From Lutraria lutraria (lineage: Eukaryota; Mollusca; Bivalvia; Venerida; Mactridae), in assembly GCA_964023205.1 (NCBI GenBank), contig OZ026850.1, positions 952,368 to 1,016,367 of the forward strand: DNA of 64,000 nucleotides, in the 5' to 3' direction. The notes below the pieces were generated by a model. That model was not told where the DNA came from, searched no databases, and saw only the letters and a program-made list of their open reading frames with translations. This document shows positions 1-43,057 of the stretch, piece after piece. The position numbers and the translations under genes were made by a program. How positions within the stretch are numbered: position 1 is the stretch's first letter; each line of letters starts with the position of its first letter.

Positions 1-909
1 ATCTAGTGACTTGCTGTAATGATAAATGGATCTTATATAACAGTACGAAAAAAGATCATGAACAATCCAAAGACCTCTCAGTATGCATAAAACCATATCA
101 GCGTTGGTTGAACACGTTAATATATGTAATACATAGATACCGTTTAGTTTATATCAACTTAATGCAACGCTTTTTGCTTAAAGGTCACGTACTTCTGTTT
201 TTATAGGACATGTAGACAATTGCTGAAGTCAATAACAGGTGCGTCGTGGAGATATAAACTGGTGTAAGCCTGTCGTTATCTATCTTATGCAGACAGCCAG
301 CTAATCTAGTGGAAGGTATTTTTGTATGCCCTGCAACCAAAGCAAACTATGTTATCTAACAAGGTCATGGCTAAAGAAGTTCAAAGCGTACTTATATTGT
401 TAAATTTACATGCGATTTTGTATTTAAATCATTTTAAACAGATTGAAAGAGAATGAGTGTTGTCTAAATCATTTGACGATAGTGCTGAATGAATTAAGTC
501 GTATTTCGATAAGACACTGACATCCGGAAGTATTCCCCTTTCTCGAGAACCAGTCGCTTGGTAAGGATTGGTTGGCTTATCCTCGAAATCAACTTAGCGT
601 CAAAACACCATTACTAGTTCTTGCCACTTAGAATCAGGGTGAATGATGGGGACGATGATACTTTCAAATTTTATGTTTTTTTCCCTGGAAATCGATGCTG
701 ATTTAAATTGGTGTATAGAAAGCTCGTATCCATTAAATTCAGTGCAAAACCCAAACTAATTACAAACATATGTACATTTCTAGAAAAACAAATAAGACAT
801 GAGGAAATATTCTACAGTATGCGAATGATTTGAAATTAAAAAGTAAATTTCACAGTGTTCTTTAATTAAAGTTCTCTATTTATCTTACCTTTATTTGATT
901 TATTTTCAG
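1..909. other. upstream flank of gene 1, no gene seen
   Basis: AT-rich sequence with only short open frames that show no domain signature. It ends in a good splice acceptor (polypyrimidine run then TTTTCAG at 901-909) directly before the first recognised coding exon. A 5' untranslated or coding exon may therefore lie further upstream in or beyond this stretch, but I could not identify one. No promoter motif is called. Confidence 0.5.
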
Positions 910-1101
910 ATATAAATATGGGTGTAGACCTTACAACCTACAGATGTAGGGTGGGAACGTTTGTCCCTCAAAGTGGTGCTGGACAGATGATGATGCCGGT
1001 TTTTATAGATTTTAGCAAATTAGTGAAGATGATTGGAGTCGTGATATTTATCAAAATGTTGTTGTTCCGGGCGGGTATAGAACAAAACCCAGGACCTACC
1101 A
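910..1101 (+). CDS. gene 1 exon 1: 2A-like leader
   Basis: The exon follows an acceptor at 909, has its ATG at 918, and ends ACCTACCA before GTAAGA. It encodes 61 residues: a basic/aromatic start, a methionine patch (24-26), a hydrophobic stretch (about 38-50, MIGVVIFIKMLLF) and then RAGIEQNPGP-T. The last part fits the 2A ribosome-skipping motif (consensus D-V/I-E-x-N-P-G-P) except that G replaces D. Skipping would cut between G59 and P60, almost exactly at the exon border. 2A-like leaders are known at the N-termini of sea urchin NLR proteins. Cleavage here is inferred. If the exon were coding from its first base, the frame would open with split codon G|AT, so an upstream coding exon is possible. 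Confidence 0.8.
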
Positions 1102-4100
1102 GTAAGAATATACACTCTTCTGTTTAGATCCTCAATACTTAGTTGATAAGCATGCTGAATGTGTATCATGTATGTAGTGCAATTTCTCCAGCATTATTAT
1201 TTATTAATTGTCTATGTCCATCACACGGTTAATATGCAATATGAATTTTATGCAATTTCTTACCAGGCGTTTGAGAGTTTTTTTGTACAATCAAAATCTT
1301 TTCTGATTTTTTTAGAATAGTTTTATATTTAGACCAGTTAAAATCCAAATTTACATGATAATAAATTAATAGAATAAAGAATACGTAATTGCTTATAATT
1401 GATCATAAGACAGGAATAAAGTTATGTTACACCATCATTTCATTTCATTCATTTCATATAAGTTCAGGATTTAAAAATGTAAATCTGGATCGAATTATCA
1501 GGATATTATATTCGTTATAAATTATATCTCAAAGTGTGTTACATTTATTCGATATTTTGAAGAAATACCTTGAAGTATGCATAACATAATTTATTTCAAC
1601 CATAATGTTTCAATGGAGTGTGATTATGTATACTCATATCATTCATAACATATAATTGAGTGTCCTGGATATATGAGGGAATTTTTTTTTCAAACACGCA
1701 CGAAGTAATGTCTTTCATTCTTAACTTTTGTATAATTCCAGCACCACCGACAATTGATACGAAAGTTGACGATCAGACCATGTCACTAGGAGAACAATGG
1801 GAACGGAACGTACCAATCAGTGGAGATGGTCCTTTTACAGTCAATGTCATGAAGGATGGTACTGAACTCACGGGGAATGATCATATTGAAATCTCATCCA
1901 CTGCTGATTGTGTCACAGTTAAGGTCAATAAGTTGATAATGGAGGATTCTGGATTATACCATATTGATGTGTCCAATGATGTTGGTACTGAAACCTGTAG
2001 TTTCGAGATGAAGGTTGTTGGTAAGTTTCTTTATTCTATTAATATGACATCAAGTAATGATGTTTACAACACATGTATCACATAATATATAGTATCAGAG
2101 AATCAATTGTAACTTTCATGAAAAATATTCATACACATTAAATACTGTAAAATTTTCTAATATACCCAGGTTACGAGAGATCTCCTATTATTTGAAATCC
2201 AAAAACTTATTTACTGTGAGCAATAAGGTTCAAATATTAAATAGTTGAAAGGTAGTTTGTTTGATTTATATGATAATTTGATTTATGTGTTACCATCAGA
2301 CAATTATGATATCTTGAACTCGCAGATAGCCATTTTAACTCACATGAGCACGAAGTGCCCAGGGTGAGCTTTTTGTGATTGGTCTTTTCCCCTAATCGAC
2401 CGTCGGGCGGCGTCAACTGTTGCCTTGTAAACACCACAGAGGCCACATTTTTAGTTAGATGTCAGAACGTTTGCATTGACAAAATCTTGGACGAGTTTGA
2501 TAATGGGTCATTTGGGGTTAAAAATAAGGTCAAATGGTCAAAATAAATGAAAACTTGTGAACACTCTAGAGGTGACTGTTTGATTGGATCATCATGAAAC
2601 TTTGTCAAAGTTTTATCTTGGGACAACGTCCATAATGGGTCATCTGGGGTCAATACTTAAGAAGCCCTTGTGAACACTCTAGGTCATATTTTCTTATTTG
2701 ATCTTCACCAAAACTTGTCTGAATGTTTACATTAATGATACATTGGACAAGTTTGAAAATGGATCATCTGGGATAAAAAAAACTTGGTCTCGATGTCAAA
2801 CATAGGAAAGCCTTAATAACACTTTAAATATCCTAGTTTTGATTCGATCATCACCAAACCTTGTCACAATATTTGTCTTAATGATGTGTAAAACAAGTTC
2901 GAACATGTGCCATCTTGGGTTAGAAACAATGTCAAATCACCGGGTCATCTTGACAACAGACCTCATGACGCAGGCCCAAAACATTGTATTCATCAGCAAG
3001 CAATGATTCTCATGTGAGCTATATTGGGTCATCTTGTCCCTCTTGTTTTTATAATTGTTCAGTTTGTAAATATTTGAATATATAACAAAGCTAACTTTTC
3101 TACCATCTGACAAGTGATATTCATATTTAATTCCTACACATCTGACAGAAATGCAACAAAGTTGCACTTCATATACACAGCCTGTGAATTTTTATTTTAA
3201 TTTATACAGCAAAAAACATTTTAAACTAAAATTTGTGTTAGCGGCCTCCCCCGAATTATCGTCACCCTGTCAATAAAGGCCATTCTATCAAATAATTTTA
3301 AAAATCGACTAGAATAAAAAGACCTCCGAATAATAGCCAACCGTCAACTTATCAGTTTGTAATGAACATTATTGAGTTTGTTTTGATTGTTTTAGTCTAA
3401 ATTAGGTTCAATTTATACTGTTTTACACCGACCATTATGAACTATGCAATTATTTTGTTTTAGGTAAATACAACTTTAGATACCAGTACCTTCTAGTAGA
3501 AATAGGAACAAACGTGTTGAGGAAACTATTTGATTGTAAGGTTGGCTACAACTTTGGACAATACTTGGTTGCTAACCCAACTGCAAGTAGTACGCTTACA
3601 TCTCTGATGACTGGTAGGAATCGTAAAATAACAGTCGTCCAGGAACAGTTACTACCACCTATCAAGGCAAAGCCTGTATCTTCAGATTTTGATATTACTC
3701 TGCTAACTTGCTTGTTAAGGAATGTGTGTGGTCTACATCCTCCAAACAACCTAGCATGGATGAATCCAATGCCCACAGACACTTCAGTTGAGGCAACAAT
3801 CACTCGATTAAAAGTTTGCAGGAACAATGTGAGTACCTAAAACATATCTAACTATGTTTATTCATTTTCTTTTATTTTGAAGTAATATCTAATCACATAA
3901 CAAGTTACATAACTTGGCTATAATGGCTTAATCCAGACGCAAAAATCGGTAATTTTGTGTTAACCAATTTCTTTTCTTTTTTGGAAGGTGAAATATTAAC
4001 GGAAATTTCAAGGACTTTTTATTTTCAGTTGTCACACAGTGGAACCGTGTTGTTTCCAGAAACAGACCTCAATGATAAATGGACAGAATTGAGTGATGTA

Positions 4101-7100
4101 AATATGAGATTAGATTCTATCTATGCCTGTTTAGTTGCTTGATTATAATGCTAGTTCTTATTTCATAATATGGCTAGGGGTTAGTTCCTGTATTTGTAAT
4201 TATGAATGATTTTTGGTGATAATGATCTTCTTATAATGCCTCACAAGTGTGTGGACATTGAGTTAATGTAACTTTTTGATAGTCTACTTCTTTTCATAAA
4301 AACTGCTTTAGCAACAATGACAATAATGCTGTTGTTTGATAAAACCTCTTCATTCCACTAAACATTGGCTCAAATTTCCCAGCATTGTAACATTCATGTG
4401 TTCTTTCTTCTTACAGTGCTATTTTTCCTCACCAGAAGCTAGCATCATTTCTTTTCTGGTCAGTTAACTGAACAATTGATATCACCCACAATTTGTCAAT
4501 CAGTGATAATTTTCTTTTCGGGGGTTATTTTCATGAAACCTTTTACTACTATCTGTGTAACCTGAGGCTAGAAATATTATCTGTATTTAAAACTCACCAT
4601 TAAATTCTTAACCTCAATATCTCAGTTCTCAAAACCAACCACATGAATATGAGTGTGTAAATTATTTGCCCATGATTGTTATCATATACAAATGTATATA
4701 TCTTCTCAACCTCAGCTTTTGAAATGATTTCGTTATTCAGAGATTTTTGAAGTCATCAGGACCATCAGTTGGATCCTTCTTTGATTTTTGTGAGATTGTT
4801 TAGTTGAAGTCTTAAGAAATATTGGCATAACAATAGTATCTGATGTTTTAGGTAAGATCATGTATCACTGTTACAAACGTATTACTCCAATCCATATTCA
4901 CTTTTTTGGAAATTTATTTTTTCAGATTCTATCTGACCTTAATAAGCATTGTGGTAAAGATGGCATCACTGACTTACCTGCATTAATGAATGCAGCCAGT
5001 TGTATGGATATTGATGAAGAAATGCAAAATCATTTTACTGAAACTGTAGAAAGATGGTATGAAAATGATCAGGAGGTAAAGGTAGAAGTGATGAAATTAC
5101 AAGATGAAGTAAAGAAAATTGGTCAAATTGGTATAACCCGTATTGGTGTAGTTGAAGAAAAAGTGAAAGAAAATGCTAAAGATGTAAGAGGAATCAAGAG
5201 ACACATAGAAGGTAAATAATTATATTTTCAATGAGCAAATATACCATTTATACAGTCATGTTTTGAAAAAAATGTGAGTTTTTTTAAATGAGTTTGTTAA
5301 GCAAAGCAATACTGTGCACCAGGTTATTTGGTATATCGATGTAGTAAAGTTCATCTTTAGCTGTATATATGTTGAACATTTCCACGCCACCTTATTTTAA
5401 AGGCAGCCTAACAAAGCACAATTTGTATTTATCTTGGGTTCAAAAGTTCAAACCTTGGTTGAGATGCCTGTCCTCTTGATGGTTTTGGTTGAATATATAT
5501 AATGTCTAAGTCAATTAATTCTTCACGTGGAAAAGTAAGCACATACTTAGGTAGAGTAAGACTAGTAATGTTGAAGACTGATTTAAAAAAAACAATGATT
5601 CCTTTTGTACTTGCATAACTGCCAACAGAAATATTTTGTATAATGTAACGAATTTGTGATATGCTTAAAAAAGATGTATGTTACAATAACTAAATCCTTT
5701 TATATGTCCTTAAATTCAGAGGTTTATCTGTATTATCTAATGTTGTACTTGTACATGTATTGTCATTAGAACTTATCAGTTTAATTCATCTTTTTCATTC
5801 ACGTATTCACAGCATTGATGAATTTGGTACTTAAAACAACTTAAGTTTTAAAATAATTATTTTGAATCCATTTTCAGACGAAGAACAAACAAGCTGTAAA
5901 CGAGTGAAAGGAAAAGAAGGAAAATCGAATGTAGATGATGGTTCAGGTATATTTTATTCAGTAATGGGCCACTTACATATTCGTAAAATAATGTTACTAG
6001 ATACATTTTACTTTTTTATTTAATAATTAATTATTTGTTTAAACTATAGATCAGATTATTAGCAATATTCGTGTGTCACCCTCTGAATGATTTTAAACAA
6101 CCAAAGAATAAATGTCTACAGGAACGTTCACGCCTATATGGGAAATGTTTGTAAATACATGTACATGTGTATATCTCTTTTTACTTTCTTGAAAGATCAT
6201 CCCCTGAATTAATCTGGCTCTCATAACTTAAATTATTTATCTTTTTTTGTACATTGTTACATGTATTTCCTATTGAATTTATCTTTGATATAAGTCTTTG
6301 AAATCTATGTAGCAATCAATATCAAAATAAAAATAATATTTTCAGATATTAGAGAAAAGCTGATAAGAATTTATGAAGAAGATTGTTCCACCTTGTCAGT
6401 GTCTCCCTTGTTTGAAGATGAGACTACTGATCTTTTAAAAGTCTATAAGAACCCGACTATGTTTCGGGTTAATTATAACAAAGAACAGAGAAAGGAAAAC
6501 AGTAAACATGAACGTCGAGAAGAAAAAACAAAAGATGATAAAAAGGTTATATCATCTTATCAAGATATATTTTGCAAGGAAGACAGTCTGTGTAAGAAAA
6601 TTTATGTTACGGGAAATGCCGGTGTAGGTAAAACATCTGAATGTAAACGAATGTGTCTGTTATGGTGTAAATCAAAGTTAAATAATCAAATTGAAGGCAT
6701 AAACGATGACAAAGGCAATGAACGCATAAAAACTGACATTCAGTACATGTCTAGATTTGATTTTGTGTTTTATGTGTCTCTACGTGACACTGATTTAATC
6801 AATGTTAATTCTATGATTGTTGAACAGTTATTTTATACAGATAATGATAAAGAAAGGGATGAAATGTACAAGCGCATAAAACATATTCTGATGAACAAAG
6901 ATTGCCTTGTTATATTGGATGGTTTTGATGAATGGATGCCTAAGATGGTTGGAAAGAAGAAATATGACAAACCCCCCTGCATCAATTCTGAGAAATGTGT
7001 CGTATTGACAACTTGTAGACCGTACAAAATTAATAATACGAAATTGTCGCCTACTGAGATAGATCATCAAGTTCAGATTACTGGTCTTGATTCTAACTCT

Positions 7101-9056
7101 TCATATGCTTATGTTGAATATTTAGTAAAGTATACGAATGAGGCAAATCATGATAGCAAAATTCCAGATGAATTCGTCAAAGATGTACGGAAATGTAATC
7201 TTGATGACTTACTATGTATTCCGATGATTGCTTCACACTTGGTGGTGCTTTGGTTTGATAGAGGGTTAACTAAAATGTCTGTAGCACATGTTTATTCACA
7301 CATACTAGACATGCTTTTTGAAAGAGCTGAAAGAAGACAAGTCAGTGTTCCACAATCAACAGGAGAAGAACATCAACTACCAGATTCCCTTGCAGAGTTT
7401 ACATATTTACAACAACATACCTCGTTATTGTCTAAATTATGTTTACTTTCATTTAAATTATTTTTTAACAAAGATGAACGGGCTGCAAATCTTGTTTTCA
7501 CTAAACAACAGTTAATGTCTGAACCATATAACTTGTCCAATGAAGAAAGTGATTTTCTGTGTCAAATTGGTATTTTGTCCAAAAAGAAAGTGATAGGGCG
7601 TCATTTGAAACAAAAGCAAAAAATGTCATTTATTCATAAGAGTTATATTGAATTTTTGGCTTCATTTTTTGTATCATCATTTGACAAAAATAATCATTTT
7701 GATGACATTATTAATGAATGGACCTGTTTTAAAGATGTTGTACAATATGATAACTTCTTTCTCTTACTTACTGGATTTTCTTATCAAAAAATGAATATTT
7801 TGCTTGAGAAAGTGTACCAATCAATATCAGATCATTTACATTTATGTAGGATAAATCATATATTTCCTTATGATGATGATGATAAATTTGATGATTACCG
7901 ACAACAGATCAAAGCACTACAAAATATGATTGTCTATCTTTTTAGTAAGGTCAGGAAATACAATGAACAAGATTGTAGGCTTCTGATTGAAGATGTTGAA
8001 TTTGATATTTATGATCCTATTCATAATTCTTATGATGATGATGACGATGTTGTTTATGATGATTATTTGAAACGACTTCTATTGTTAAATACAACATGTA
8101 TAAAGTCAATATGTTCAGATAAATATTGTGATGAGTTTGATAAAATCCATACTCTGCAATGTCTTGATATAAGTGTGTCTGCTGATAACGTTGAAAAGTT
8201 CACTAAGTGCATACAGAATAATTCAGAACTGCACACTCTTTGTATTAGTAGTAATTATGCATTGATACCAGAATTACCTGTGAGAAGTCTCCATCATCTG
8301 ACATCATTGTCTCTGTCTCGTGTTGGAATACAATATGAAAGTTTACATGATCTGGTGAAATTTCTGTCTGACAATGTTCTCATTGAAAATATAAAATTGT
8401 CTTCTGTGTTTTGTGTTAATCCCCAGGATGATGATAGTGACTGTACATTGACTCTAAATCTTCCACAACATACAAAACTCACTACATTTTGTCTGGAGGA
8501 TGATAATATTTCATGTAACAATATAAACAGTTTTAATTTAAAGTCCGTCAAATTGCGGTTATCAAAGCAGAGGAATGATAGACTTGATTATAGTGATTTG
8601 TTTAATTGTATTAGGTATTCACAACTTAAACATCTTTGTGTCTATCCTTTTGCTTACAAGTTAGATAAGAACACTATGAAAACATTGACATCATCTGTGA
8701 AAACTCTTTCATGTATCAAGGCGCTAAAACTTAGGTACATGAAGTTACCTGATGATATTTCATTACAACTACATCCTCAGGTAACACAAGCGAAGATACA
8801 GCTGTATGAGGTCACAATGAGTCGTCAATGTTTTCATTGTTTTATTAAAAGTTGTGTGAACACTAAATCTGAGATAAAAGTTGAGTTACGTTTTTGTCAG
8901 ATTACATCAGTTGATGGAGAAACTCACAGTGAACTGTCAATGTCCGAGTCTTGGAAATACATGTCTGAATATCTTAAATCAATATCTAAAATAAAAAACA
9001 TAGATAAAGATGATAGAAGGCTTTACCGGTTACGCTTTGAAACAACAAGTTATTAG
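918..9056 (+). CDS. 2A-leader / Ig / HEPN / NACHT / LRR receptor-like protein, copy 1 (7 exons)
   Basis: Hand-spliced CDS: 918-1101, 1742-2020, 3464-3828, 4029-4097, 4926-5211, 5878-5946, 6346-9056. All junctions are GT-AG and phases match throughout, giving 1320 codons plus stop. Domain order: hydrophobic leader ending in a 2A-like motif (1-60), I-set Ig (62-154), DZIP3-type HEPN (about 155-360, with R274 and H279), coiled linker, NACHT (Walker A 507-514, K513; Walker B 604-613 ending DGFDE; sensor R642), NLR-type FIHKSYIEFL segment near 846, and LRRs from about 1015. This is a STAND/NLR architecture. By family knowledge the NACHT would be an ATP-driven oligomerisation switch, the LRR the sensor and HEPN an RNase-type effector. 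That function is inference. The start ATG has A at -3 and G at +4. Gene 2 repeats the whole layout 28 kb downstream on the same strand. Confidence 0.85.
1742..2020 (+). CDS. gene 1 exon 2: I-set Ig-like domain
   Basis: A phase 1-1 exon of 93 residues (about 62-154) starting TPPTIDTKVDDQ. It carries the I-set signature: a G-x-x strand-B region, TVNVMKDGTEL in place of the W-x-KDG strand C, a D-S-G-L-Y turn, and VSNDVGTETCSFEMKVV for the F and G strands. The usual strand B and F cysteines and the strand C tryptophan are absent (the F strand reads YHI rather than YxC). This resembles intracellular titin/twitchin-type Ig domains and fits a cytosolic protein. The symmetrical phase makes it a clean shuffleable module. 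Confidence 0.75.
2335..2965. repeat. dispersed repeat with ~125-bp internal periodicity (intron 2 of gene 1)
   Basis: Four degenerate units repeat the pattern TTGTC-x-GAA...TTGGACAAGTTTGA-AATGGGTCATCTGGGGTCAA, at about 2463, 2600, 2715 and 2855. The head reads GAGCACGAAGTGCCCAGGGTG. I associate this sequence type with common bivalve interspersed repeats. It is absent from gene 2 intron 2, so it was inserted after duplication or lost from the other copy. Confidence 0.6.
3236..3352. repeat. GGCCACCTCCGAATAA-type dispersed repeat, copy A
   Basis: GCGGCCTCCCCCGAATTATCG...GACCTCCGAATAATAGCCA resembles 44608-44735 (GAGGCCACCTCCGAATAATGG...GACCTCCGAATAAAGGCCACC). Two divergent copies in one window indicate a dispersed family. 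No coding content. Confidence 0.5.
3464..3828 (+). CDS. gene 1 exon 3: DZIP3-type HEPN core
   Basis: Entry phase 1, exit phase 0. It encodes YQYLLVEIGTNVLRKLFD, a mid-region ending DFDITLLTCLLRNVCGL, and DTSVEATITRLKVCRNN at the end. The pattern (V/I-E-I-G-T-x-x-L-R at the start, D-x-T-L-L-x-x-L-L-R-N-x-C-G-L in the middle, then the R-N box) matches the HEPN domain of DZIP3-like proteins, a family much expanded in molluscs. The catalytic R (R274) is near the end of this exon and the paired H (H279) is in the next exon. The frame opens within GGTAAATAC, so the acceptor is TTTTAG at 3463. Confidence 0.75.
4029..4097 (+). CDS. gene 1 exon 4: completes HEPN R-x4-H motif
   Basis: A 69-nt phase 0-0 exon reading LSHSGTVLF to TELSD. 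With exon 3 it forms CRNN-LSH, an intact R-x4-H RNase motif. Its acceptor is ATTTTCAG at 4028 and its donor is GTAAAT at 4098. Reading through the donor meets a stop at about 4140, so intron retention would give a truncated leader-Ig-HEPN product. Exon boundaries are supported by an identical copy structure at 31136-31204. Confidence 0.75.
4926..5211 (+). CDS. gene 1 exon 5: HEPN tail and coiled segment
   Basis: Phase 0 entry, phase 1 exit. It reads ILSDLNKHCGKDGITDLPAL, then an acidic helix MDIDEEMQNHFTETVERWYE, then a charged coiled-coil-like run (EVMKLQDEVKKIGQ to KRHIEG). It is 54 nt longer than the gene 2 exon, from an 18-residue length difference in the coil. The 66 nt upstream of the acceptor are also open in this frame from an ATG at 4860, and this is conserved in the paralogue. 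Confidence 0.75.
5878..5946 (+). CDS. gene 1 exon 6: short charged linker
   Basis: A 69-nt phase 1-1 exon encoding DEEQTSCKRVKGKEGKSN and VDDGSG. The acceptor is TTTTCAG at 5877 and the donor is GTATAT at 5947. No domain is recognised. It is a basic/acidic linker joining the HEPN-coil part to the NACHT exon. The symmetrical phase means it could be skipped without a frame change. The same exon exists at 39892-39960. Confidence 0.7.
6346..9056 (+). CDS. gene 1 exon 7: NACHT ATPase and LRRs
   Basis: One large terminal exon, a common NLR arrangement, starting DIREKLIRIYEEDC and ending with TAG at 9054-9056. Walker A is GNAGVGKTS (507-515). FVFYVSLRD follows, then the Walker B CLVILDGFDEW (604-614), sensor TTCRP with R642, a helical/winged region with FIHKSYIEFLASFF near 846, and an acidic D-rich linker (codons 8034-8048). 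LRR-like segments follow, for example LHTLCIS, HLTSLSLS, IENIKLS, IKALKLR and KVELRFC. All key ATPase residues are present. N-terminal half and LRR tail differ sharply in divergence from gene 2. Confidence 0.85.
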
Positions 9057-17920: not shown

Positions 17921-17924
17921 TACG

Positions 17925-28871: not shown

Positions 28872-29063
28872 ATATAAATATGGGTGTAGACCTTACAACC
28901 TACCGATGTAGGGTGGGAACGTTTGTCCCTCAAAGGGGCGCGGGAATGATGATGATGCCGGTCTTTATTGATTTTAGTAAATTAGTGAAGATGATTGGAG
29001 TCGTGATATTTATCAAAATGTTGTTGTTCCGGGCGGGTATAGAACAAAACCCAGGACCTACCA
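28872..29063 (+). CDS. gene 2 exon 1: 2A-like leader
   Basis: Same design as gene 1 exon 1, with ATG at 28880. Only residues 19 and 23 differ (S/R, Q/M) of 61. From K34 to the splice donor the two genes are identical at the DNA level, covering the hydrophobic run and RAGIEQNPGP. Several other substitutions upstream are synonymous, pointing to purifying selection on the leader. The acceptor is at 28871 and the donor GTAAGA at 29064. Confidence 0.8.
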
Positions 29064-32000
29064 GTAAGAATACACATGCTTGTTTTTAGATCATCAATAC
29101 TTAGTTGATAAGCATGCTGACTATGCATCATGTAGGGCCTACAGTGCCATTTCTCCAAAGCAACAACCTTTGGGAGTCGTACGCGTGGTATCATATTCAT
29201 TTTATTTAGCAAGTATAAATGATATCAGAATGTATATACGTTACATTTTTTCGAAATTTCAAAGTTATATCTGGAGGTATGCATGTCAGAATGCTAGTTG
29301 ACACCCACTATACATAGTTCCCACATCTACAATATTTACCTCCCTTGGCAGCCATCTTGTTTGGCTAATTCAACAGGCATCGATAGAAGATATTTATATT
29401 TTTGCTTTGATAATTCTAAATATAGGATATTTATATGTGACAATGACATTTTCTTACACCTGATGTACAACTTCATGATTAAGTTAACTTTTATAAAATG
29501 AGATGTTTAATAACCAATTTTCAGATTTTTTTTCTATTAAGCACATAAGAAATTTGCCTAGCAAGATAACTTCCAAGGGAGGTAAATATTGTAGATGTGG
29601 GAACTATGTATATTCTTTTTAACCATAGGGTATCAATGTATGATTATATATAAACTACTATCATTCATAAATATAACTTTGAATGTTCTGGAAATATGAG
29701 AGAAATTATGACTTTTTAAATACCGGTACGCACATAGTAACGCGTTTCATTTTTAAGATTTGTATGATTCCAGCAGCACCGACAATTGATACGAAAGTTG
29801 ACGATCAGACCAAGTCACTAGGAGAACCATGGGAACTAAACTTACCAATCAGTGGAGATGGTCCTTTTACAGTCAAGGTCATGAAGGATGATACTGAACT
29901 CATAGGGAATGATCATATTGAAATCTCACCCACTGCTGATCGTGTCACAGTTAAGGTCAATAAATTGATGATTGAGGATTCTGGATCATACCATATTGAT
30001 GTGTCCAATGATATTGGTACTGACTCTTGCATGTTTGAGATGAAGGTTTTGGGTAAGTTACTTTTAAAGTCCTGTTGATTTGCTATCAGCTAATAATAAC
30101 AGCAATGACAAATAATGCATAAACATAAAATACGTAAAATGCAATTAATTTAGAAATAACTACATGTGATTTGATCAACAAAATCATTGTAAAAACAAAC
30201 AAAAAAAGAATATTTTATTCATTCTGGAATAAATATTTAACCTTTAAATTTAAAAAAGGAAATCATATTACATACATTACTCTTAAGAAAGATTATGTGT
30301 GATATGATAATGATAACAAAGTTAGCTATTTACTCAGTAAGTCATTTCCTCAATGGCATAAGCACGTATTCAATTAAGCAAGTAATTTAGTGTCTTCGTA
30401 TAATTTTACCCTCAATGTTTCAGTTTGTCATGAGCATTATACAGTGTGTTTAGAATACTTTTGTATTTTACTCTTAATTTGGTTCCATTTATACTGTTTT
30501 CCTCCCATCATTTTGAACTATGCTAATATTTTGGTTAAGGTAAATACAACTTCAGATACCAGTACCTCCTAGTAGAAATAGGAACAAAAGTGTTGAGGAA
30601 ACTGTTTGATTGTAAAGTTGGCAACGACTTTGGACGATATTTGGCTTCTAACCCAACTGCAAGTAGTACGCTTACATCTCTGATGACTGGTAGGAATCGT
30701 AAAATAACAGTCGTCCAGGAACAGTTACTACCACCTATCAAGGCAATACCTTTATCATCAGATTTTGATATTACTCTGCTAACTTGCTTGTTAAGGAATG
30801 TGTGTGGTCTACGTCCTCCAAACATCCTAGCATGGATGCATCCAATGCCCACAGACACTTCAGTTGAGGCAACAATCACTAGACTAAAAGATTGCAGGAA
30901 CAATGTGAGTACCTATACCCTATTTAACTCTGTTTATTCGTTTTCTATCATTTTGAAGTAATAATTAATCACGCAAAAGTTACATAACCTGTGTTACAAC
31001 TAAATGGCTAAATCCAGACGCAAATGCAAAATCACTTATTTTGTGTTAACCAATTTCTTTTCTTCTTTGCATGGTGAAATATCGGGATAGACTTGAAAAC
31101 AATAAATGTAAATTTCAAGGACTTTTTATTTTCAGTTGTCTCACAGTGGAACCGTGTTGTTTGAAGAAACAGAGCTCAATGATAAATGGACAGAATTGAG
31201 TGATGTAAATATGAGATTAAATACTATCTCCCTGTTCAGTTGCTTGATTATAATGCTAGTTCTTATTTCATAATATAGCTAGGGGTTAGTTCCTGTTTTT
31301 GTAATCATGAATGATTTTTGGTAATAATAATCTCCTTATAATGCCTCACAAGTGTGTGGACATTGAGTTAATGTAACTTTTTGATAGTCTACTTCTTTTC
31401 ATAAAAACTGCTTTAGCAACAATGACAATAATGCTGTTGTTTGATAAAACCTCTATTCCACTATACATTAGCTCATATTTCCCAGCATTATAATACATGT
31501 ATTCATGTATTCTTTCTTCTTACAGTGCTAATTTTCCTCACCAGAAGCTAGCATCATTTCTTTTCTGGTCAGTTAATTGAACAATGGATATTACCCACAT
31601 TTTGTCAATCTGTGATAATTTTCTTTTTGGGGTTATTTTCATGAAACCTTTCACTCCTATCTGTGTAACCTGAGGCTAGAAATATTATCTGTATTTAAAA
31701 CTCACCATTAAATTCTTAACCTCAATATCTCAGTTCTCAAAACCAACCACATGAATATGAGTGTGTAAATTATTTGCCCATGATTGTTATCATATACAAA
31801 TGTATATATCTTCTCAACCTCAGCTTTTGAAATGATTTCGTTATTCAGAGATTTTTGAAGTCATCAGGACCATCAGTTGGATCCTTCTTTGATTTTTGTG
31901 AGATTGTTTAGTTGAAGTCTTAAGAAATATTGGCATAACAATATTATCTGATGTTTTAGGTAAGATAATGTATCACTGTTACAAACGTATTACTCCAATC

Positions 32001-35000
32001 CATATTCACGTTTTTGGAAATTTATTTTTTCAGATTCTATCTGACCTTAATAAGCATTGTGGTAAAGATGGCATCACTGACTTACCTGCATTAATGAATG
32101 CAGCCAGTCATATGGATATTGATGAAGAAATGCAAAATCATCTTACAGAAGCTGTAAAAAGATGGTATGAAAATGATCAGGAGGTAATGGCAGAAGTGAT
32201 GAAGTTACGAGAATCATTAGAAGCAATGGCTTCAGATGTTAGCATAATCAAGAGTCACATAGAAGGTAAATAATTATATTTCCAATGAGCAAATATGTCA
32301 TTCATACAGTCATGTTTGGAAAAAATTGTGAGCTTTATAAATGAGTTTGTTAAGTAAAACAATACTGTGCACCAGGTTATTTGGTATATCGATGCAGTAA
32401 AGTTCATCTTTAGCTGTATATATGTTGAATATTTCCACGCCACCTTAAGGCAGCCTAACAAAGCACAATTTGTATTTATCTTGGGTTCAAAAGTTCAAAC
32501 CTTGGTTTAGATGCATGTTCTCTTGATGGTTTGGTTGAATACATATAATGTCTAAGTCAATTAATCCTTCACGTGGAAAAGTGAGCACATACTTGGGTAG
32601 AGTAAGACTAGTAATGTTGAAGACTGATGTACAAAACATTGATTCCTTCTGTACTTGTATAACTGTCAACAGAAATATTTTGTATAATGTAATAAATTTG
32701 TAATATGCTTAAAAAAGATGTATGTTACAATAACTAATAATAATAATCTTTATCTAACGAACTTGTTACATTTATAGACATATTATATACAAACATATCG
32801 TCACATAAGAACCATAAGGGCTCATCTGCAAAAATCAAATAGTGGAGAAAAAGCCGTTTAAAGGTTTGAAGGTTTACCAAAAATCAAATATTCAAGACAC
32901 AATCAAGAAATTTTGTACATTTAATAAGATGGTAAAGAACTTTTAAAATACAGTTTGTTTGAATTAAACAATTGACGTACAAGCCATATACGGTCATATT
33001 TGCAGATGAGCCCTTATGGTTTTTTATTTTTTTTACAAACATAAGGACTCATCTGTAAAAAAGAACTCTAATTATAGGGAATCACTGGTTCAAATTCACA
33101 TCAAAGTGTTACTTTTTGCAACAAATATTAAATATGTGTTCCATAGATACAGTTTTATCCGATAATCTCATCTTATCACTGTCTGCGTCATCTACACGAC
33201 TGTGCGGTACAGTAACCGTTCTTTTACAGATTTATCTGTCTTAAGATCAGCATAGAAATCATGGTTACTTGATGGAATTATTAGTGAGTCGCACAGTGAC
33301 ATTAAATCTTTCTTTTTTGGTTCAGTATTTCTGGGCGGACAACTATGCACTGATCGACGCAGCTTTATGACTCGAACTTCCAGTTGATCAAAGTTTTCTT
33401 TCACAAAAATCATGTCTGGCTGATGGTTGCTGACACTCTTATTATTTTTATTTTTAACCAGTTTACCATATTCCCATTGTGTCAGTCTTTAGTGTGTGAG
33501 ATGTTTCCCTTTTGCAGTTTTTAATTTTGAAAAAAATGGTCGAAATGCATGGATAAAACAGTGTAAGGATTACTTCTGCAAGCAAAATGAATAACCATAT
33601 CCTAGTTGTCTGGGATGAAAATTGAAGTTCCCTTTTTGGCTGTATCTATAGCAGAATGTATGGAATCACATTCCATTTGTGTATGTCCTGACTCCAACAT
33701 TTTTTGTTCTATTAGTTCAACTGTTGGGTGACTAAATATAATCAGTTTCGGCCAGAGCAACAGTCTGAATACAGTATTTATTTGGTGTGTTCACCTGAGG
33801 TATACTAATACTTGATTTTGTCAAAATTATTCAGTTTATTGTCATCCACGAACACCTTTAGTGCATGCATCATAATGTTCATAGCCTGGAACTGCTAAAC
33901 ATGCTAAACAAAAGGCCTCTGCACTTGTCGCCATATACATCTGGCTCAATTTGAATCAAAGGGCAGTTCAGTCTACTGGAATATATCAGTATTCTTCTCT
34001 GCAACAGATTAGCTGTTGCAAATGGGATCAGGTCGCTTAGTGACACATTCCATATTCCATCATGCTTGAGTTCATCAACATTTTCATCAAACATCTGTGA
34101 TGATTCTTCTTTTGACTAATTAAACTTATCCAAGAAGCCAATATAGTGATTATTTTGTTGCTTTAAATGAAGAAACATCACTGTCACTTGTGTTGAATTG
34201 ACATGTTATTGCATTGAAAAAAACAATTGCCATCACCTGCTACATTGTATTTAGTTTTTTTTCCAAGTTAGTACTTATAAGCATATTGTTAAGTCTGATT
34301 TCATGATGTTTCTTAAATACTTGTGTTTACTTGAAACATTCTGCAGCTAGCCATAATTACATGTTCAGTGCTTATTGTTTCTGTGTTCTGTTGATCTGTA
34401 GTTGGTTGCCTTCCTTTGTTTATCAATTCTGTTTTAGGCGGTTTAGCTATTTTTGCAATGTGCCTTTGCATAGGTCTGGTTCTTATTCTCCAACATTTCT
34501 GATGTATGTTAGTGATATGTATTACAGGTATATTTATATCCCCATTGATGCTGGTATCACTATCAGACCTTTGTACAAGAGTGTATGTTTTATCATTATC
34601 ACTGTCATCATTTTCGGGTGACGTAAAAAGTATTTTACGCTTCCAAGTTGCCTTCCTGTTTGGTTGTTTTCTTGTACAGTTTTCAATAGAATGATCTACT
34701 CATTCTTTTCAGTTCTGCCTGAATTTGACACAATGGAAAGTCATCATCTGAACAGCTTTGCTATTCATTATCTGTTTTATTTTTAAGGCCAGACAGTGTG
34801 CTTGACAGTGGTATGTCTTCATCAGAAGAGGACTTGGTCCTTTTTTCCATCTCAATTTCATTTACGTCCTTCCTTTTATCTAATGATTTATTTTCATTCA
34901 GAGTCAAGTCTTTTTGTTTGTTGGTCGAAAGAGTTCAATTAACATCAAAACTTTTAAAACGCCTTTTGGTGATGAAAACTGCTTGGTTCAGTCTTTCTTT

Positions 35001-38000: not shown

Positions 38001-41000
38001 TTGAGAAGGAAGTCGTTGTGAAGTTGCAAAAATATTTTACGAAAAACATACTTGTCATCGGACGCAAAGGTTATTACTACATGTTGCGCTAAAATTACAG
38101 CGAGCAGAGGCTTATATGTCAACAATATAAATCTGACATTAAGTCGTCATGGCATTGGTGGACCAAGCTAGGATATCACGTGACACTTGTACCCGCTAAT
38201 TGTACGTGATTGAACGTGTCATGTATTGTATATCAACCGATTATTATGTATTAGTTATCGTTCATATTTTGAATTTTAGGGGATATATCACAAGCGACGC
38301 GAAGCGAAACGCAGTGATAAGTCGCATAAAATTCAAAATATGAACGATAACTGATTTACAGATTGTCTTAATTTCTGTGCTTACAGTTTGTCTTAATTTC
38401 TCGTCCAATGAAATGTCCGCATTTCATTTGAAATTTGAAAAATATATCGCATAAAATGTGCTTAAGACCTGATATGGAGAAAATACGTCACTTATTTTTC
38501 TGTATGTACAGAAATTAAGACAAACTGTAAATCAGTTATCGTTCATATTTTGAATTTTATGTGACATATCACAGCGCTCCGCTCCGCGTCGCTTGTGATA
38601 TATCCCATAAAATTCAAAATATGAACAATAACTAATACATAGAGAAAAATAAGTGACGTATTTTCTCCATATCAGGTTCTAGGCACATTTTATGCGATAT
38701 ATTTTTCAAATTTTAAATGAAATGCGGACAATTCATTGGACAAGAAATTAGGACAAACTGTAAGTATTGTAAAATGCATATTACTTACAGCACAGCTTCT
38801 ATTGTGGTGTGAAAAATGTATGTAACGAACCAATACCGGTACTATACATTATTGATTGTAAAAAATGATTATCATGAAATGTGGTTGTCTTTAAATGTAA
38901 ACAACAGAGTTAACATAGAAACATTGTTGTTTTAATATTACGGTAACATATCCATGTTAATATTTTTATGACTGCATATGCCTACATTACAACTTCCTAA
39001 AAGGAGACGATAGCCTTGTGCTGATCTTAGGTCGAAAAAAAAAAGCATTTAATTATTGCTTTTAATATTACGATCCTAACTATAATTGTTGGAGTCATCA
39101 AAAGTCTACAAATAACTATTATGGGAAAATAAGATTAACATGCACTTACAAAAATGGCCTAAATAATGACGTAATGACGCCGTGTTTTCATTTCAAGTGG
39201 TGCAGGAAACGTTACGATACTGAAAAAAGTAGCCTGAAGAGGTATAGATTTTTTTCGCTTAATGCGTAGATAAATGAATGTTTTAAATAATGTTAATTTT
39301 TGAAAAACTTCTACCACGGCGTTTTAGCTACATTTGCATTTATCTGAATATTTTACGTCGAAAAAACGTCCCCATAATGACGCTTTGAAGTCGATTAATT
39401 TCCGACACGCCGGGCGGTCATGGATATTCAAAGCATTGATGATGATTACTCGGTAGGCCACAGCATTCACTCATCCGCAAAGTTCGAATTTTCAATCTAT
39501 GACAATTTATAGCAAAGCTACAAGGGGAAAAGTACAACGAGTCGTTTACACAGCTGGTGCCGCTAGATGGCGTTTTAACGTCGTTTAGTTGCTAGGTTAC
39601 CGACGTCAAACTGTAAAAAGAACAATATTTTCGTAAGCGCTGCTACTTCGGGTATAATTCCTCCAAATTTCATGCCATTCTAACAAACTTTCTTTTTTTG
39701 CCGAGCAACACCGCGAACTACCTTAAATTCAGAGGTTAATCTGTATTATCTGATGTTGTACTCGACATGTATTGTCATTAGTTCTTATCAGTTTAATTGA
39801 AATATTTTCATTGACATATTCACAGCATTGATTAATTTGGTACTTAAAAACAACTTGAAGTTTTCAACAATTATTTTTAATCTATTTTCAGACAAAGAAC
39901 AAACAAGCTGTAAACAAGTGAAAGGAGATGAGGGAAAATCAAATGTAGATGATGGTTCAGGTATATTTTATTCAGTAATGGGCCACTTACATATTCGCAA
40001 AATAATGTTATTAGATACATTTTACTTTTTATTTAATAATTAATTATTTGTTTAAACTATAGATCAGATTATTAGCAATATTCGTGTGTCACCCTCTGAA
40101 TGATTTTAAACAACCAAAGAATAAATGTCTACGTTCACGCCTATATGGGAAATGTTTGTAAATACATGTATATCTCTTTTTACTTCCCTGAAAGATTATC
40201 CCCTGAATTAATCTGGCTCTCATAACTTAAGTTATTTATCTTTTTTGTACATTGTTACATGTATTTCCTATTGAATTTATCTTTGATATTAGTCTTTGAA
40301 ATATATGTAGCAATCAATATCAAAATAAAAATAATATTTTCAGATATTAGAGAAAAGCTGATAAGAATTTATGAAGAAGATTGTTCCACCTTGTCAGTGT
40401 CTCCTTTATTTGAAGATGAGACAACTGAACTTTTAAAAATCTACCAGAAACCGAAAATGTTTCGGGTTAATTATAACAAAGAACAGAGAAAGGAAAACAG
40501 TAAACATGAACGTCGAGAAGAACAAACAAAAGATGATAAAAAGGTTATAACATCTTATCAAGATATATTTTGCAAGGAAGACAGTCTGTGTAAGAAAATT
40601 TATGTTACAGGAGACGCAGGTGTAGGGAAAACATCTGTATGTAAACGAATGTGTCTGTTATGGTGTAAATCAAAGTTAAATGATCAAATTGAAGGCATAA
40701 ATGATGACAAAGGCAATGAACGCATAAAAACTGACAGTCAGTACATGTCTAGATTTGATTTTGTGTTTTATGTGTCTCTACGTGACACTGATTTAATCGA
40801 TGTTAATGATATGATTGTTGAACAGTTGTTTTACACAGATGATGTTATAGAAAAACATGAAACAATCAAGCGCATAAGAAATATTCTGATGAACAAAGAT
40901 TGCCTTGTTATATTGGATGGTTTTGATGAATGGATGCCTAAGACGAGTGGAAAGAAGAAATGTGACAAACCCTCCTGCACATACTCTGAGAAGTGCGTTG

Positions 41001-42039
41001 TATTGACAACTTGCAGACCGTACAAAATTAATGACATTAGATTGTCGCCCACCGAGATAGATCATGAAGTTCAGATTACTGGTCTTGATTCTAACTCTTC
41101 ATATGCTTATGTTGAATATTTAGTAAAGTATACGAATGAGGCAAATCATGATAGCAAAAATCCAGATGAATTCGTCAAAGATGTACGGAAATATAAGCTT
41201 GATGACTTACTATGTATTCCGATGATTGCTTCACACTTGGTGGTGCTTTGGTTTGATAGAGGGTTAACTAAAGTATCTGTAGCACATATTTATTCACACA
41301 TACTAGACATGCTTTTTGAAAGAGCTGAAAGAAGACAAGTCAGTGTTCCACAATCAACAGGAGAAGAACATCAACTACCAGATTCCCTTGCAGAGTTTAC
41401 ATATTTACAACAACATACCTCTTTATTGTCTAAATTATGTTTACTTTCATTTAAATCATTTTTTAACAAAGATGAACGGGCTGCAAATCTTGTTTTCACT
41501 AAACAACAGTTAATGTCTGAACCATATAACTTGTCCAATGAAGAAAGTGATTTTCTGTGTCAAATTGGTATTTTGTCCAAAAAGAAAGTGATAGGGCATT
41601 ATTTGAAACAAAAGCAAAAAATGTCATTTATTCATAAGAGTTATATTGAATTTTTGGCTGCATTTTTTGTATCAACATTTGACAAAAATAATCATTTTGA
41701 TGACATTATTAATGAATGGACCTGTGTTGATGATGTTGTACAATATGATAACTTCTTTCTCTTACTTACTGGATTTTCTTATCAAAAAACGAATATTTTG
41801 CTTGAGAAAATGTACCAATCAATATCAGATCATTTACATTTTTGTAGAATAAATAATATATTTCATGATAATACTAATTATGATGTTTTTTATGATTTGA
41901 ATGATAATTTCCAACAACAGATCACACGACTACAAAATATGATTGTCAGACTTTTCAGTGAGGTCAGGAAATACAATGAACAAGATTGTAGACTTCTGAT
42001 TGAACATTTAAATTTTGAGGATTGTTATTACTATGATTA

Positions 42040-42070
<31 letters not shown>

Positions 42071-43057
42071 TATGTTGATTGTTTGAAACGACTTGTTTTG
42101 TTAAATACAACATGTATAAAGTCAATATGTTCAGATAAATATTATGATGAATTTGATAAAATACATAGTCTGCAATGTCTTGAAATAATCCTGCGTGCTG
42201 ATTTTGTAAAGTTCACAAAGTGCATGTTACAGAATAATTCAGAATTGCACACTCTTTGTATTAGTGGTTTTTTTAGTTCGATACCAGAATTACCTGTGAC
42301 AAGTCTCCATCATCTGACATCATTGTTTCTGTCTGATGTTATAATACAACATAAAAGTTTAGATGATCTGGTGAAATTTCTGTCTGACAATATTTCCATT
42401 GAAAATATACGATTGTCTGCTGTGTCTTGTGATACTCACCAACATGATGATAGTGACTGTACATTGACTCTAAATCTTCCACAACATACAAAACTCACTT
42501 CATTATATCTGTACAAAGTTAATATTTTATGTAACAATGTAAACAATTCTAGTTTAAAGTTCGTCACATTGCATCCATTATCTGAGAGGATTGTTAGACT
42601 TTGTTATAATGATCTATTTAATTGTATTAGCTATTCACAACTTGAACAACTTTGTGTCTTTGGTTCTTCTGACAATGTAGATATGAACACAATGGAAACA
42701 TTGACATCATCTGTGATAACTCGTCCATGTATCAAGGCGCTAAAACTTGGGAACATGAAGTTACCAGATGATATTTTATTAGAACTACATCCTCAGGTAA
42801 CACAAGTGAAGATAGAGCTGGAGGAGGTCACAATGAGTCCTCAATGTTTTCATCGTTTTATTGAAAGAAACACTAAATCTGAGATAAAAGTTGAGTTACG
42901 TGGGTGTAGGATTACATCAGATGATGGAGAAACTCGCAGTGTACTGCCAAGGGAGAAGTCTGAGGAATACATGTCTAAATATGTTGAATCAATATCTACA
43001 ATAAACATCATATATGATGTTGATGAGTCATTCTTTGAAACTACAAGTAATCAGTAA
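28880..43057 (+). CDS. 2A-leader / Ig / HEPN / NACHT / LRR receptor-like protein, copy 2 (7 exons)
   Basis: Hand-spliced CDS: 28880-29063, 29774-30052, 30540-30904, 31136-31204, 32034-32265, 39892-39960, 40344-43057. This gives 1303 codons plus stop with every junction GT-AG and the same phases as gene 1. Exons 1-4 and 6 have identical lengths to gene 1; exon 5 is 54 nt shorter and exon 7 is 3 nt longer. Domains: leader with GIEQNPGP, cysteine-less I-set Ig, HEPN with R274 and H279, coil, NACHT with Walker A GDAGVGKT (489-496) and Walker B LVILDGFDE, then LRRs. No stop or frameshift, so both copies look functional. Intron 5 is 7.6 kb because of two transposon insertions. Likely an intracellular immune-type receptor by architecture; ligand and activity are unknown. 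Confidence 0.85.
29311..29610. mobile_element. 300-bp TA-flanked inverted-repeat element in intron 1 of gene 2
   Basis: Terminal inverted repeats begin TACATAGTTCCCACATCTAC and continue through ACAATATTTACCTCCCTTGG, with the mirror at about 29569-29610. They are about 40 bp and nearly perfect, flanked by TA on both sides. This is a Tc1/mariner-like miniature element by TSD type. It is absent from gene 1 intron 1. Confidence 0.7.
29774..30052 (+). CDS. gene 2 exon 2: I-set Ig-like domain
   Basis: Phase 1-1, 279 nt, exactly as in gene 1. It starts TAPTIDTKVDDQTKSLG and ends DSCMFEMKVLG. The D-S-G-S-Y-H-I turn again lacks the strand F cysteine, so loss of the disulphide is a shared, stable property and not decay of one copy. 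Confidence 0.75.
30540..30904 (+). CDS. gene 2 exon 3: DZIP3-type HEPN core
   Basis: 365 nt as in gene 1. The acceptor is TTAAG at 30539 (an A-rich, weaker site than in gene 1) and the donor GTGAGT at 30905. It reads YQYLLVEIGTKVLRKLFD to ATITRLKDCRNN. Most replacements lie in one loop (VGNDFGRYLASN against VGYNFGQYLVAN), while the LLTCLLRNVCGL core is unchanged. Confidence 0.75.
31136..31204 (+). CDS. gene 2 exon 4: HEPN motif completion
   Basis: 69 nt, phase 0-0, LSHSGTVLFEETELNDKWTE then LSD. It supplies H279 of the R-x4-H motif. The donor is GTAAAT at 31205. Confidence 0.75.
32034..32265 (+). CDS. gene 2 exon 5: HEPN tail and shorter coil
   Basis: 232 nt. ILSDLNKHCGKDGITDLPAL is unchanged from gene 1, then MDIDEEMQNHLTEAVKRWYE. 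The coil end is different and 18 residues shorter (EVMKLRESLEAMASDVSIIK). As in gene 1, the intron sequence just upstream is open in frame from an ATG (31968). Confidence 0.75.
33192..33413 (-). pseudogene. decayed open frame inside nested element, unknown
   Basis: A 73-codon minus-strand frame (MIFVKENFDQLEVRVIKLRR at its start, with PPRNTEPKKKDL in the middle). Codon makeup differs from the surrounding AT-rich noise and it lies on the same strand as the OTU-like remnant at 33879-34094, so it may be a downstream exon of the same element gene. No domain recognised. Confidence 0.25.
33879..34094 (-). pseudogene. OTU-like protease domain remnant
   Basis: A 71-codon minus-strand frame. WNVSLSDLIPFATANLLQRR then ILIYSS and PLIQIEPD fits the second half of OTU cysteine-protease folds (W...D-x-x-x-x-A-x-A-x-x-L-x-R-x-I-x-I-Y). 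The N-terminal catalytic D-G-x-C part is not seen in frame. OTU domains are carried by some eukaryotic transposons, which fits its place inside an inverted-repeat element. Confidence 0.35.
34954..35115 (-). pseudogene. short N-terminal frame of the same element gene
   Basis: 53 codons in minus sense, starting MEKTENSIHGAVLADWSDEE, preceded by a splice-acceptor-like TTACAG. Acidic, no domain recognised. Placed upstream of the OTU-like remnant on the same strand, it may be the original first coding exon. Confidence 0.25.
37190..37590. repeat. ~170-bp direct repeat pair nested in the TTAA element
   Basis: Two units share CCATAATTTGAATAAACCTG / CCATCATTTGAACAAACTTG, GCAGAGGTCTACTAGA-AATG and TTGTTTC-GA-AAG. 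I associate the motif with common bivalve interspersed repeats. No coding content. Confidence 0.45.
38245..38770. repeat. nested palindromes inside the TTAA element
   Basis: GTTATCGTTCATATTTTGAA then TTTTA-GG-ATATATCACAAGCG and its mirror occur twice in opposite order (38260-38345 and 38535-38635). The surrounding GACGTATTTTCTCCATATCA and TTAGGACAAACTGTAAG blocks also repeat inverted. The whole can fold into a large cruciform. Confidence 0.5.
39892..39960 (+). CDS. gene 2 exon 6: short charged linker
   Basis: 69 nt, phase 1-1, DKEQTSCKQVKGDEGKSN then VDDGSG. The acceptor (ATTTTCAG) and donor (GTATAT) are unchanged from gene 1 despite the 7-kb insertion upstream, and the frame is open, so splicing across the enlarged intron appears preserved. 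Confidence 0.7.
40344..43057 (+). CDS. gene 2 exon 7: NACHT ATPase and LRRs
   Basis: Starts DIREKLIRIYEEDC, stop TAA at 43055-43057. Walker A is GDAGVGKTS (489-497) and the Walker B LVILDGFDEW and sensor TTCRP are intact. The NLR-like FIHKSYIEFLAAFF segment is present. The linker before the LRRs contains nine consecutive Asp encoded by pure GAT (42044-42070). The LRR tail shares the framework with gene 1 but not its variable positions (HLTSLFLSDV, ALKLGNMKL, VELRGCRIT). Residues 1-5 of the exon continue from a split codon G|AT. Confidence 0.85.

Follow-up and report, generated by a model that had tools for sequence, protein, structure and literature searches.

A candidate StopGo leader as the usual first exon of HEPN_DZIP3-NACHT receptor genes in the bivalve Lutraria lutraria

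Two receptor genes in a 64,000-nucleotide stretch of the Lutraria lutraria genome (hereafter the window) begin with an exon that encodes a 2A-like leader. Based on our analysis, this exon is very likely a working StopGo leader and the usual first exon of a lineage-expanded family of bivalve HEPN_DZIP3-NACHT genes. The original prediction had described such a leader on an NLR-type gene in both paralogues of the window. We confirm that the leader in exon 1 of both genes is real, and the earlier observation understated the case. To judge from the conserved sequence, ribosome skipping at this leader would very probably occur and be efficient.

Both genes lie on the forward strand. Exon 1 of gene A (918..1101), which is supported by translation, family, selection and pattern count, encodes the 61 residues MGVDLTTYRCRVGTFVPQSGAGQMMMPVFIDFSKLVKMIGVVIFIKMLLFRAGIEQNPGPT plus one base and ends in RAGIEQNPG/P-T. 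It comprises a MGVD..TYRCRVGTF module (918-962), a hydrophobic segment (about 1011-1067) and the GIEQNPG/P core (1074-1097). A 3' splice acceptor CAG (907..909, forward strand) is found 8 bases 5' of the start codon, and a donor GTAAGA follows directly 3' of the exon at 1102. Exon 2 (1742..2020, phase 1-1) encodes an I-set immunoglobulin domain (Pfam I-set 1.1e-10, splice sites) and exon 3 (3464..3828) the first part of HEPN_DZIP3 (Pfam 3.2e-25, splice sites). Splice consensus and frame delimit exon 4 (4029..4097) with the end of the HEPN domain and the two linker exons 5 (4926..5211) and 6 (5878..5946), while exon 7 (6346..9056) carries NACHT and an LRR-like C-terminus with the stop codon (Pfam NACHT 1.4e-7, AlphaFold2/Foldseek). 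The joined frame of these seven exons comprises 1,320 residues with a single, terminal stop, and Pfam places I-set at residues 64-153, HEPN_DZIP3 at 199-316 and NACHT at 550-674, the latter being PF05729 with 31.9 bits against a cut-off of 26.7. As judged by eye, the Rx4H motif RNNLSH crosses the junction of exons 3 and 4, and the Ig exon is devoid of the usual YxC cysteine.

Gene B has a homologue of every gene A exon in the same order, where homology extends over 179 of the 286 bases of exon 5 and over most of the length of exon 7. Its leader exon (28880..29063), identified by translation and comparison with gene A, has the same core and differs from that of gene A in two residues. The Ig exon (29774..30052), the HEPN_DZIP3 exon (30540..30904), exon 4 (31136..31204), exon 6 (39892..39960) and the NACHT-LRR exon 7 with its stop codon (40344..43057) were assigned by homology, and exon 5 (32034..32265) has an approximate 3' end taken from splice consensus. 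When the exon junctions are placed by splice consensus, reading frame and comparison with relatives, each leader can continue in frame into the Ig exon and from there into the HEPN_DZIP3 and NACHT exons. The skip site G59/P60 falls near the end of exon 1 in both genes, four bases separating the proline codon from the border, and the next exon encodes the I-set domain, just as originally predicted.

The C-terminus of gene A gave no Pfam LRR match. An AlphaFold2 model of exon 7 (mean pLDDT 62.9, alignment of seven sequences) displays alternating strands and helices, and its best Foldseek matches are NLRC4 (1.4e-12), NOD2 (1.7e-10) and NLRP3 (3.7e-10; best E-values), with TM-scores of at most 0.27. 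NLR-type hence seems a fair name for the window genes, the terminal exon being NLR-like in a model of low confidence. Between the two NACHT-LRR exons (6346-9056 and 40344-43057) dN/dS is 1.07, suggesting that the receptor body is under relaxed or diversifying selection. The window further contains long arrays of short tandem repeats at about 11400-13950, at 17900-20000 and around 54073-54627, with units ATGTTGGTACTA... and TTTATGTACAGTTGGTC-like (by eye; the stretch around 54073-54627 from translation alone). Frames of 184 residues within these arrays resemble repeat translations rather than genes.

The leader is not restricted to the window. We searched the same genome (728.5 Mb, 71 contigs) with the 61-residue leader and scored the best 150 of 164 candidates, most of which are situated on the contigs C18 and C19. 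At the DNA level, the pattern G[IV]ExNPGP was found at 141 sites genome-wide against 0 for the reversed pattern, and an occurrence of NPGP by chance was rejected because of these counts. Among 98 loci examined (L009-L106), all except L045 and L076 have a recognisable N.GP end; since reading demanded this end, leaders in which the motif has been lost are underrepresented. Three of these 96 loci are retrotransposons, and the other 93 comprise 92 of the receptor leader type plus L046 from the C17 region discussed below. G occupies p12, where classical 2A has D, in 93/93 leaders and G[IV]ExNPGP is present in 91/93, the exceptions being L069 (GNEQNPGP) and L083 (NSGP). Where a MG start was needed, 12 of the 93 leaders were excluded (at four of them, L038, L075, L099 and L100, this start is visibly changed), and removal of 17 exact duplicates from the remaining 81 led to 64 unique leaders; M and G are invariant in both sets because the rows were chosen for a MG start. 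Within the 81 leaders, A at -3 and G at +4 are found in 79, and an acceptor AG lies exactly 8 bases before the ATG in 68, so that an untranslated exon further upstream is likely.

The leaders are linked to receptor exons. At least 121 of the 150 leader matches have HEPN_DZIP3 on the same strand within 7 kb downstream (median distance 1,035 bases), while among the matches listed the control counts were 0 for the opposite strand and 1 for the upstream side of the leader's own strand. Conversely, at least 120 of 150 HEPN_DZIP3 matches have an upstream leader and 30 are without a listed one; two of the HEPN loci counted as leaderless, C18:946105 and C18:1198473, have a G-type core 4.4 kb upstream. 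For NACHT, a leader is found upstream within 15 kb in 80 of the best 100 of 186 candidates, with controls of 3 and 4. The leader, HEPN and NACHT counts are lower bounds, and pseudogenes are possible among the loci. The 29 leader matches that are without HEPN downstream among the matches listed include six in retrotransposons (five read, the sixth assigned by equal score and frame length), seven in the GTPase region of C17, nine in an array on C4 and two on C9 (those on C4 and C9 degenerate or unread), while five are unexplained or lie beyond the matches listed.

The HEPN start motif was present in 13 of 34 loci examined, and an in-frame phase-1 acceptor precedes it in 13/13; therefore, the leader can be spliced directly onto HEPN. 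An Ig exon (phase 1-1) occurs in 6 of 33 loci, all on C19, within stretches that covered 1.5 to 2.8 kb downstream. Judging by this distribution, the Ig exon was apparently inserted between the leader and HEPN in the subfamily to which the window genes belong.

Some loci deserve separate mention. L045 (C4:13110900-13112899) belongs to a tandem array of leader-like stretches with matches at C4:13108474-13116024, which keeps MGVDITMWRC.V and the hydrophobic part, stops before NPGP and has no HEPN within 7 kb among the matches listed. On C19, two pairs of receptor leaders, L012/L013 and L014/L015, have identical translations within each pair at distances of 45 and 60 kb, a sign of recent local duplication. 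One leader-HEPN-NACHT locus lies in a repeated segment of 2.5 kb with 98-100% identity across 8 places (L042, L043 and L107-L110 on C9 and C11; further copies on C1, C7, C16 (two), C18:9.8 Mb and C46). Its NACHT open frame has 340 residues in six copies and 639 in two, and its 3' flank, compared between C9 and C11, is 99.93% identical over 7.5 kb and contains a frame that by eye is RT-like. The segment looks like a recent segmental duplication or a large mobile unit.

The core GIEQNPGP of genes A and B conforms to (D/G/C/N)(V/I)ExNPGP, to which the StopGo core has been extended (PMC12846837, excerpts). From the absence of the usual D, the original prediction derived a possibly altered or tuned efficiency. 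This part found no support: G is the rule in 93/93 leaders, and in the excerpts of the same paper G at p12 is a functional, established StopGo variant that is as prevalent as D in RNA-virus StopGo and tied, among other things, to an upstream motif ending in (A/G/S)G. Damage by a D-to-G change was likewise rejected, given the constant G in these leaders and in 8/8 leaders of Mactra antiquata and the known function of the variant. In the alignment, LLxxSGD-IES of retrotransposons and LLxxAG-IEQ of receptors have LL and SG/AG in register and are one codon apart, so that the missing D seems to reflect a difference of one codon and not a D-to-G change.

The hydrophobic segment that had been noted ahead of the core is general: in a 19-residue Kyte-Doolittle window all 64 unique leaders reach at least 1.6. 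LL is found at the same columns in 62/64, p11 is A, S or G in 64/64, and a K/R is conserved inside the hydrophobic segment in 62/64. By eye, the L-rich upstream context is like that described in excerpts of PMC12846837, where upstream motif 5, which the leader resembles, is not among the motifs assayed. A protein database search with the leader alone, which depends on shared 5-residue words, gave no match. N-myristoylation of the MG start was considered and dropped, as MGVELD, MGIDID and MGDDLN break the PROSITE pattern (compared by eye).

From these features a mechanism can be proposed. The ribosome would synthesise the roughly 60-residue leader first, and the hydrophobic segment together with GIEQNPG would act within the exit tunnel. 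Consequently, the G59-P60 bond would not be formed, the leader would be released, and synthesis would resume, yielding a most likely cytosolic receptor with proline as its first residue. A minority of read-through product that retains the hydrophobic leader and is membrane-bound, as shown for a sea-urchin leader, is a tentative addition we would not bet on. The two forms suggested in the original prediction, and a secretory role of the leader, are possible.

The strongest competitor is dual targeting as in sea urchins, where skipping and read-through would both be functional and their ratio would set the balance between cytosolic and secretory receptor. The original prediction was right to name sea-urchin NLRs as precedent (PMC4981915, excerpts): one of their leaders is skipped to about 80% in vitro by a qualitative estimate, and the read-through form enters the secretory pathway. 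Position, gene class and hydrophobic leader of the bivalve genes match this tested case, and the hydropathy of 64/64 leaders would permit a secretory read-through form. However, no sign of read-through was found in the sequences, high skipping is suggested by a core of a permitted type in a suitable context, and the hydrophobic segment, in which K/R is conserved, is itself part of the 2A context. We therefore regard dual targeting as a serious option that is still less probable than its opposite, and prefer efficient skipping with a mainly cytosolic product.

Selection bears on further alternatives. Between genes A and B, dN/dS amounts to 0.13 for the leader (a rough figure based on 6 synonymous and 3 non-synonymous changes) and 0.43 for the first HEPN exon, compared to 1.07 for the NACHT-LRR exon. 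Over the 64 unique leaders, pN/pS is 0.059 for the skip-core octamer, 0.24 for residues 1-15, 0.25 for the hydrophobic stretch and 0.60 for the spacer, as calculated from those pairs that fell within the usable range (356 of 2,016) and with the N-terminal figure slightly lowered by the choice of MG starts. The codons of the p12 glycine vary (GGA, GGT, GGG), and N, P, G and P each use two or three codons. To judge by such synonymously varying codons for constant residues, selection is on the peptide and most of all on the skip core, while the constraint on the core could stem from a different function of those residues.

If the leader instead served as a signal peptide or anchored the protein in the membrane, with NPGP as an inherited relic that has lost efficient skipping, the receptor would be mainly membrane-bound. 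The hydrophobic segment in all 64 leaders and the Ig domain that comes next in the window genes would fit such a reading. Yet it is precisely the skip core, more than the hydrophobic segment, that is most constrained, a basic residue resides within the segment in 62/64 leaders, the Ig exon is confined to 6 of the 33 fetched stretches while other leaders are spliceable straight to HEPN, and the Ig exon has no YxC cysteine. Taken together, this makes a signal peptide or anchor unlikely.

Some 40 residues or more separate residues 1-15 (MG..D..YR.R.G.F) from the skip site, whereas 2A activity maps to 20-30 residues (PMC11512398, excerpts) and full FMDV 2A activity takes more than 30 (PMC12846837, excerpts). 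The first half, located beyond the mapped stretch, is therefore probably kept for another purpose, and its conservation at such a distance makes a separate function of the leader after its release probable. This conservation is left unexplained if the N-terminal proline matters most, that is, if the leader were merely the means to a Pro-starting receptor with regulated turnover. Every intact leader would indeed yield a Pro start, and a destabilising N-terminal Pro is mentioned in excerpts of PMC12846837, but T, A, G, H, F or P follows the proline, depending on subfamily and species. We consider turnover through the proline a little less likely still than the membrane anchor.

A link to mobile elements emerged as well. 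Weak matches of the leader search (33% identity or less, E 0.08 and above) are starts of ORF1-like frames of non-LTR elements. In the elements found here, a leader MGVD..YR.RIGTF...LLVVSGDVESNPGP opens the ORF1-like frame. The loci L039, L040 and L041 begin with MGVDINAWRVDIGTF, MGVDISVYRARIGTF and MGINIVAWRLVIGLF, and their leaders end in SGD[IV]ESNPGP, followed by a coiled coil and, by eye, an endonuclease-like frame behind it. L040 and L041 gave coiled-coil matches and a sub-threshold match to Transposase_22 (L1-like RNA-binding region), while a piece of the endonuclease-like frame from L040 gave no Pfam match. The elements keep the D, whereas the receptors possess neither this D nor an ORF1 body; the window leaders lead into Ig, HEPN and NACHT exons and not into a coiled coil with an L1-like RNA-binding domain. 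2A sequences in APE-type non-LTR retrotransposons were reportedly described by Odon in 2013.

Over the first 16 residues, L039-L041 resemble the receptor leaders with z of 5.5-7.3 and 0/200,000 shuffles each, figures that are inflated because similarity of the leader was how these elements came to light. L121, from a further set of 20 elements read and selected by its D-type core alone, is a fairer test: it reads MGISTEQWRAKVGCF and gave z 5.9 (0/200,000 shuffles), or z 5.5 (1/200,000) without M and G. Altogether 23 D-type elements were read: eight belong to families with a MG-type leader, five of them complete, and in fifteen the open stretch preceding the core, short in some cases, contains no MG-type start. 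In a tree of about 60 positions, five retrotransposon leaders and 27 receptor leaders (two from Mactra) separate with a support of 99.7/100; the retrotransposon side is the more diverse, with a mean distance of 1.22 against 0.82 on the receptor side, where the tree resolves few relations. Thus, common ancestry of the receptor leader and the non-LTR ORF1 leader is well supported by sequence comparison, and capture of the leader by the host from a retrotransposon appears to be the likelier direction. That the leaders are merely retrotransposon ORF1 starts which by chance lie near receptor genes is very unlikely because at least 121 of 150 leaders are in register with HEPN and Mactra gene models fuse the two; although retrotransposons do carry homologous leaders, the cores differ (AG-IEQ and SGD-IES) and the tree separates the groups, so that a stray element was rejected.

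Genome-wide, 86 D-type cores are present on 20 contigs (control 1). A clean split into D for mobile elements and G for receptors was tried; it is nearly true, and exceptions were found. Among 100 of the 141 G-type sites, 87 are of the receptor type, eight lie in the GTPase region of C17 and five elsewhere (C6, C8, C12, C14 and C17:21.68 Mb); of the three read among these five, on C6, C12 and C14, the latter two resemble retrotransposons. L132 (C14) is retrotransposon-like, with the core QGVEPNPGP and an endonuclease assignment that relies on a sub-threshold Pfam match, and L134 (C12; core also at C17:21682683) is retrotransposon-like, with SGIEPNPGP followed by a PHD-like finger; G at p12 therefore extends beyond immune genes. 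L133 (C6:23948900-23952700; core also at C8:5950940) holds a frame of 122 residues that contains the G-type core LLLLTQGIEPNPGP, with a stretch of hydrophobic residues upstream.

The eight G-type cores on C17 (22.72-22.99 Mb) lead to a second gene family. At L131 (C17:22722100-22729099), the core is followed by an open frame of 1,581 residues with Pfam matches to URGCP_GTPase (3.3e-76) and URGCP (1.1e-39), which we take to be a class of very large interferon-inducible GTPases. A genome search with a 288-residue piece of this GTPase revealed seven such genes, all on C17, and in 7/7 a G-type core lies 0.4-1.3 kb upstream on the same strand (coordinates compared by eye). The last 24 residues of the GTPase leader are identical to receptor leaders at up to 18 positions and to retrotransposon leaders at 8, and a phase-1 splice can join the L131 leader in frame (...AGVEPNPGPNGGRQDHIEPSEKSPHIILKKLGL). 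The leader search had also given five weak matches 2-3 kb upstream of the C17 cores. The four that were read (L135-L138, two of them alike) begin with MGVDI[MQ]TYRA[CS]IG[ST]F and continue into a hydrophobic stretch without NPGP; exactly 8 bases upstream of their ATG lies an acceptor, the spacing also seen in the receptors. In these GTPase genes, the MG module and the 2A core thus seem to reside on separate exons, with their joining putative. A second immune family, comprising seven URGCP/VLIG-type giant GTPase genes, apparently has the leader module and a related 2A core in front of it.

One might speculate that a single ORF1-derived leader module serves as a reusable first exon on two unrelated innate-immune families and that its skip ratio reports the state of translation. 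As StopGo is sensitive to the ribosome's state, the skip ratio would let proteins report on translation; if this were true, disturbed translation, for example by a virus, would shift the balance between cytosolic and leader-bearing receptor. We consider this rather improbable at present.

StopGo is said to be rare in cellular genes (PMC12846837, excerpts), and here, in one bivalve genome, the leader stands before about 120 HEPN-type receptor loci under stronger selection than the receptor body. Many natural variants are thus available for measuring the effect of the skip ratio in a cellular gene. The authors of the sea-urchin study called speculation on the cellular origin of 2A fruitless (PMC4981915, excerpts). 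This origin becomes approachable, because the 15 residues that underlie the likeness to retrotransposon leaders lie outside the 2A core. While sea-urchin NLR leaders are the known precedent for the bivalve case, what appears to be new here is the resemblance of the first half of the leader to a non-LTR ORF1 leader and the presence of the module before URGCP/VLIG-type GTPase genes. In 2025, Rao et al. reportedly surveyed the 2A sequences of eukaryotes and viruses systematically (Cell Reports), and that survey may already include such genes. In the literature searched, no paper on 2A leaders in bivalve NLRs was found, and the excerpts of PMC5086354 and PMC8623073 do not treat them.

Compared with known systems, the closest database proteins to gene A belong to Mactra antiquata (37-38% identity). 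As read from gene models, an N-terminal G[IV]ExNPGP is fused directly to HEPN in 8 of 9 close Mactra HEPN proteins, P0005 being without it, and the full MG[IV]DI.SYRCRIG.F stretch occurs in three (P0001, P0020 and P0019, where 15 residues precede it). NPGP was absent from the 16 other HEPN proteins found (corals, oyster and others; P0006-P0018, P0023-P0025). Pinctada fucata has, as here, a lineage-specific bivalve expansion, there of NACHT, DZIP3-HEPN and Ig, with more than 200 NACHT genes and the HEPN_DZIP3-NACHT architecture, but no 2A leader is mentioned in the excerpted passages (PMC9646362).

The sea-urchin NLRs of Strongylocentrotus purpuratus share with the window genes a hydrophobic N-terminal 2A-like leader, a skip site before the receptor and many paralogues, and such leaders were counted in 14 of 87 database entries, or in 85 of 241 (PMC4981915, excerpts). 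However, the sea-urchin leader has 26 residues and was found by D(V/I)ExNPGP, while the bivalve leader has about 60 with a GIEQNPGP core. Moreover, going by the same excerpts, HEPN_DZIP3 replaces the DEATH domain in the bivalve family, and the bivalve leader has the conserved MG..D..YR.R.G.F first half and the link to a retrotransposon leader. With StopGo sequences that have G at p12 and upstream motif 5 (PMC12846837, excerpts), the leader has in common the core, the (A/G/S)G context and the favoured Q at p15; those are RNA-virus sequences, whereas the leader described here is the first exon of a cellular gene.
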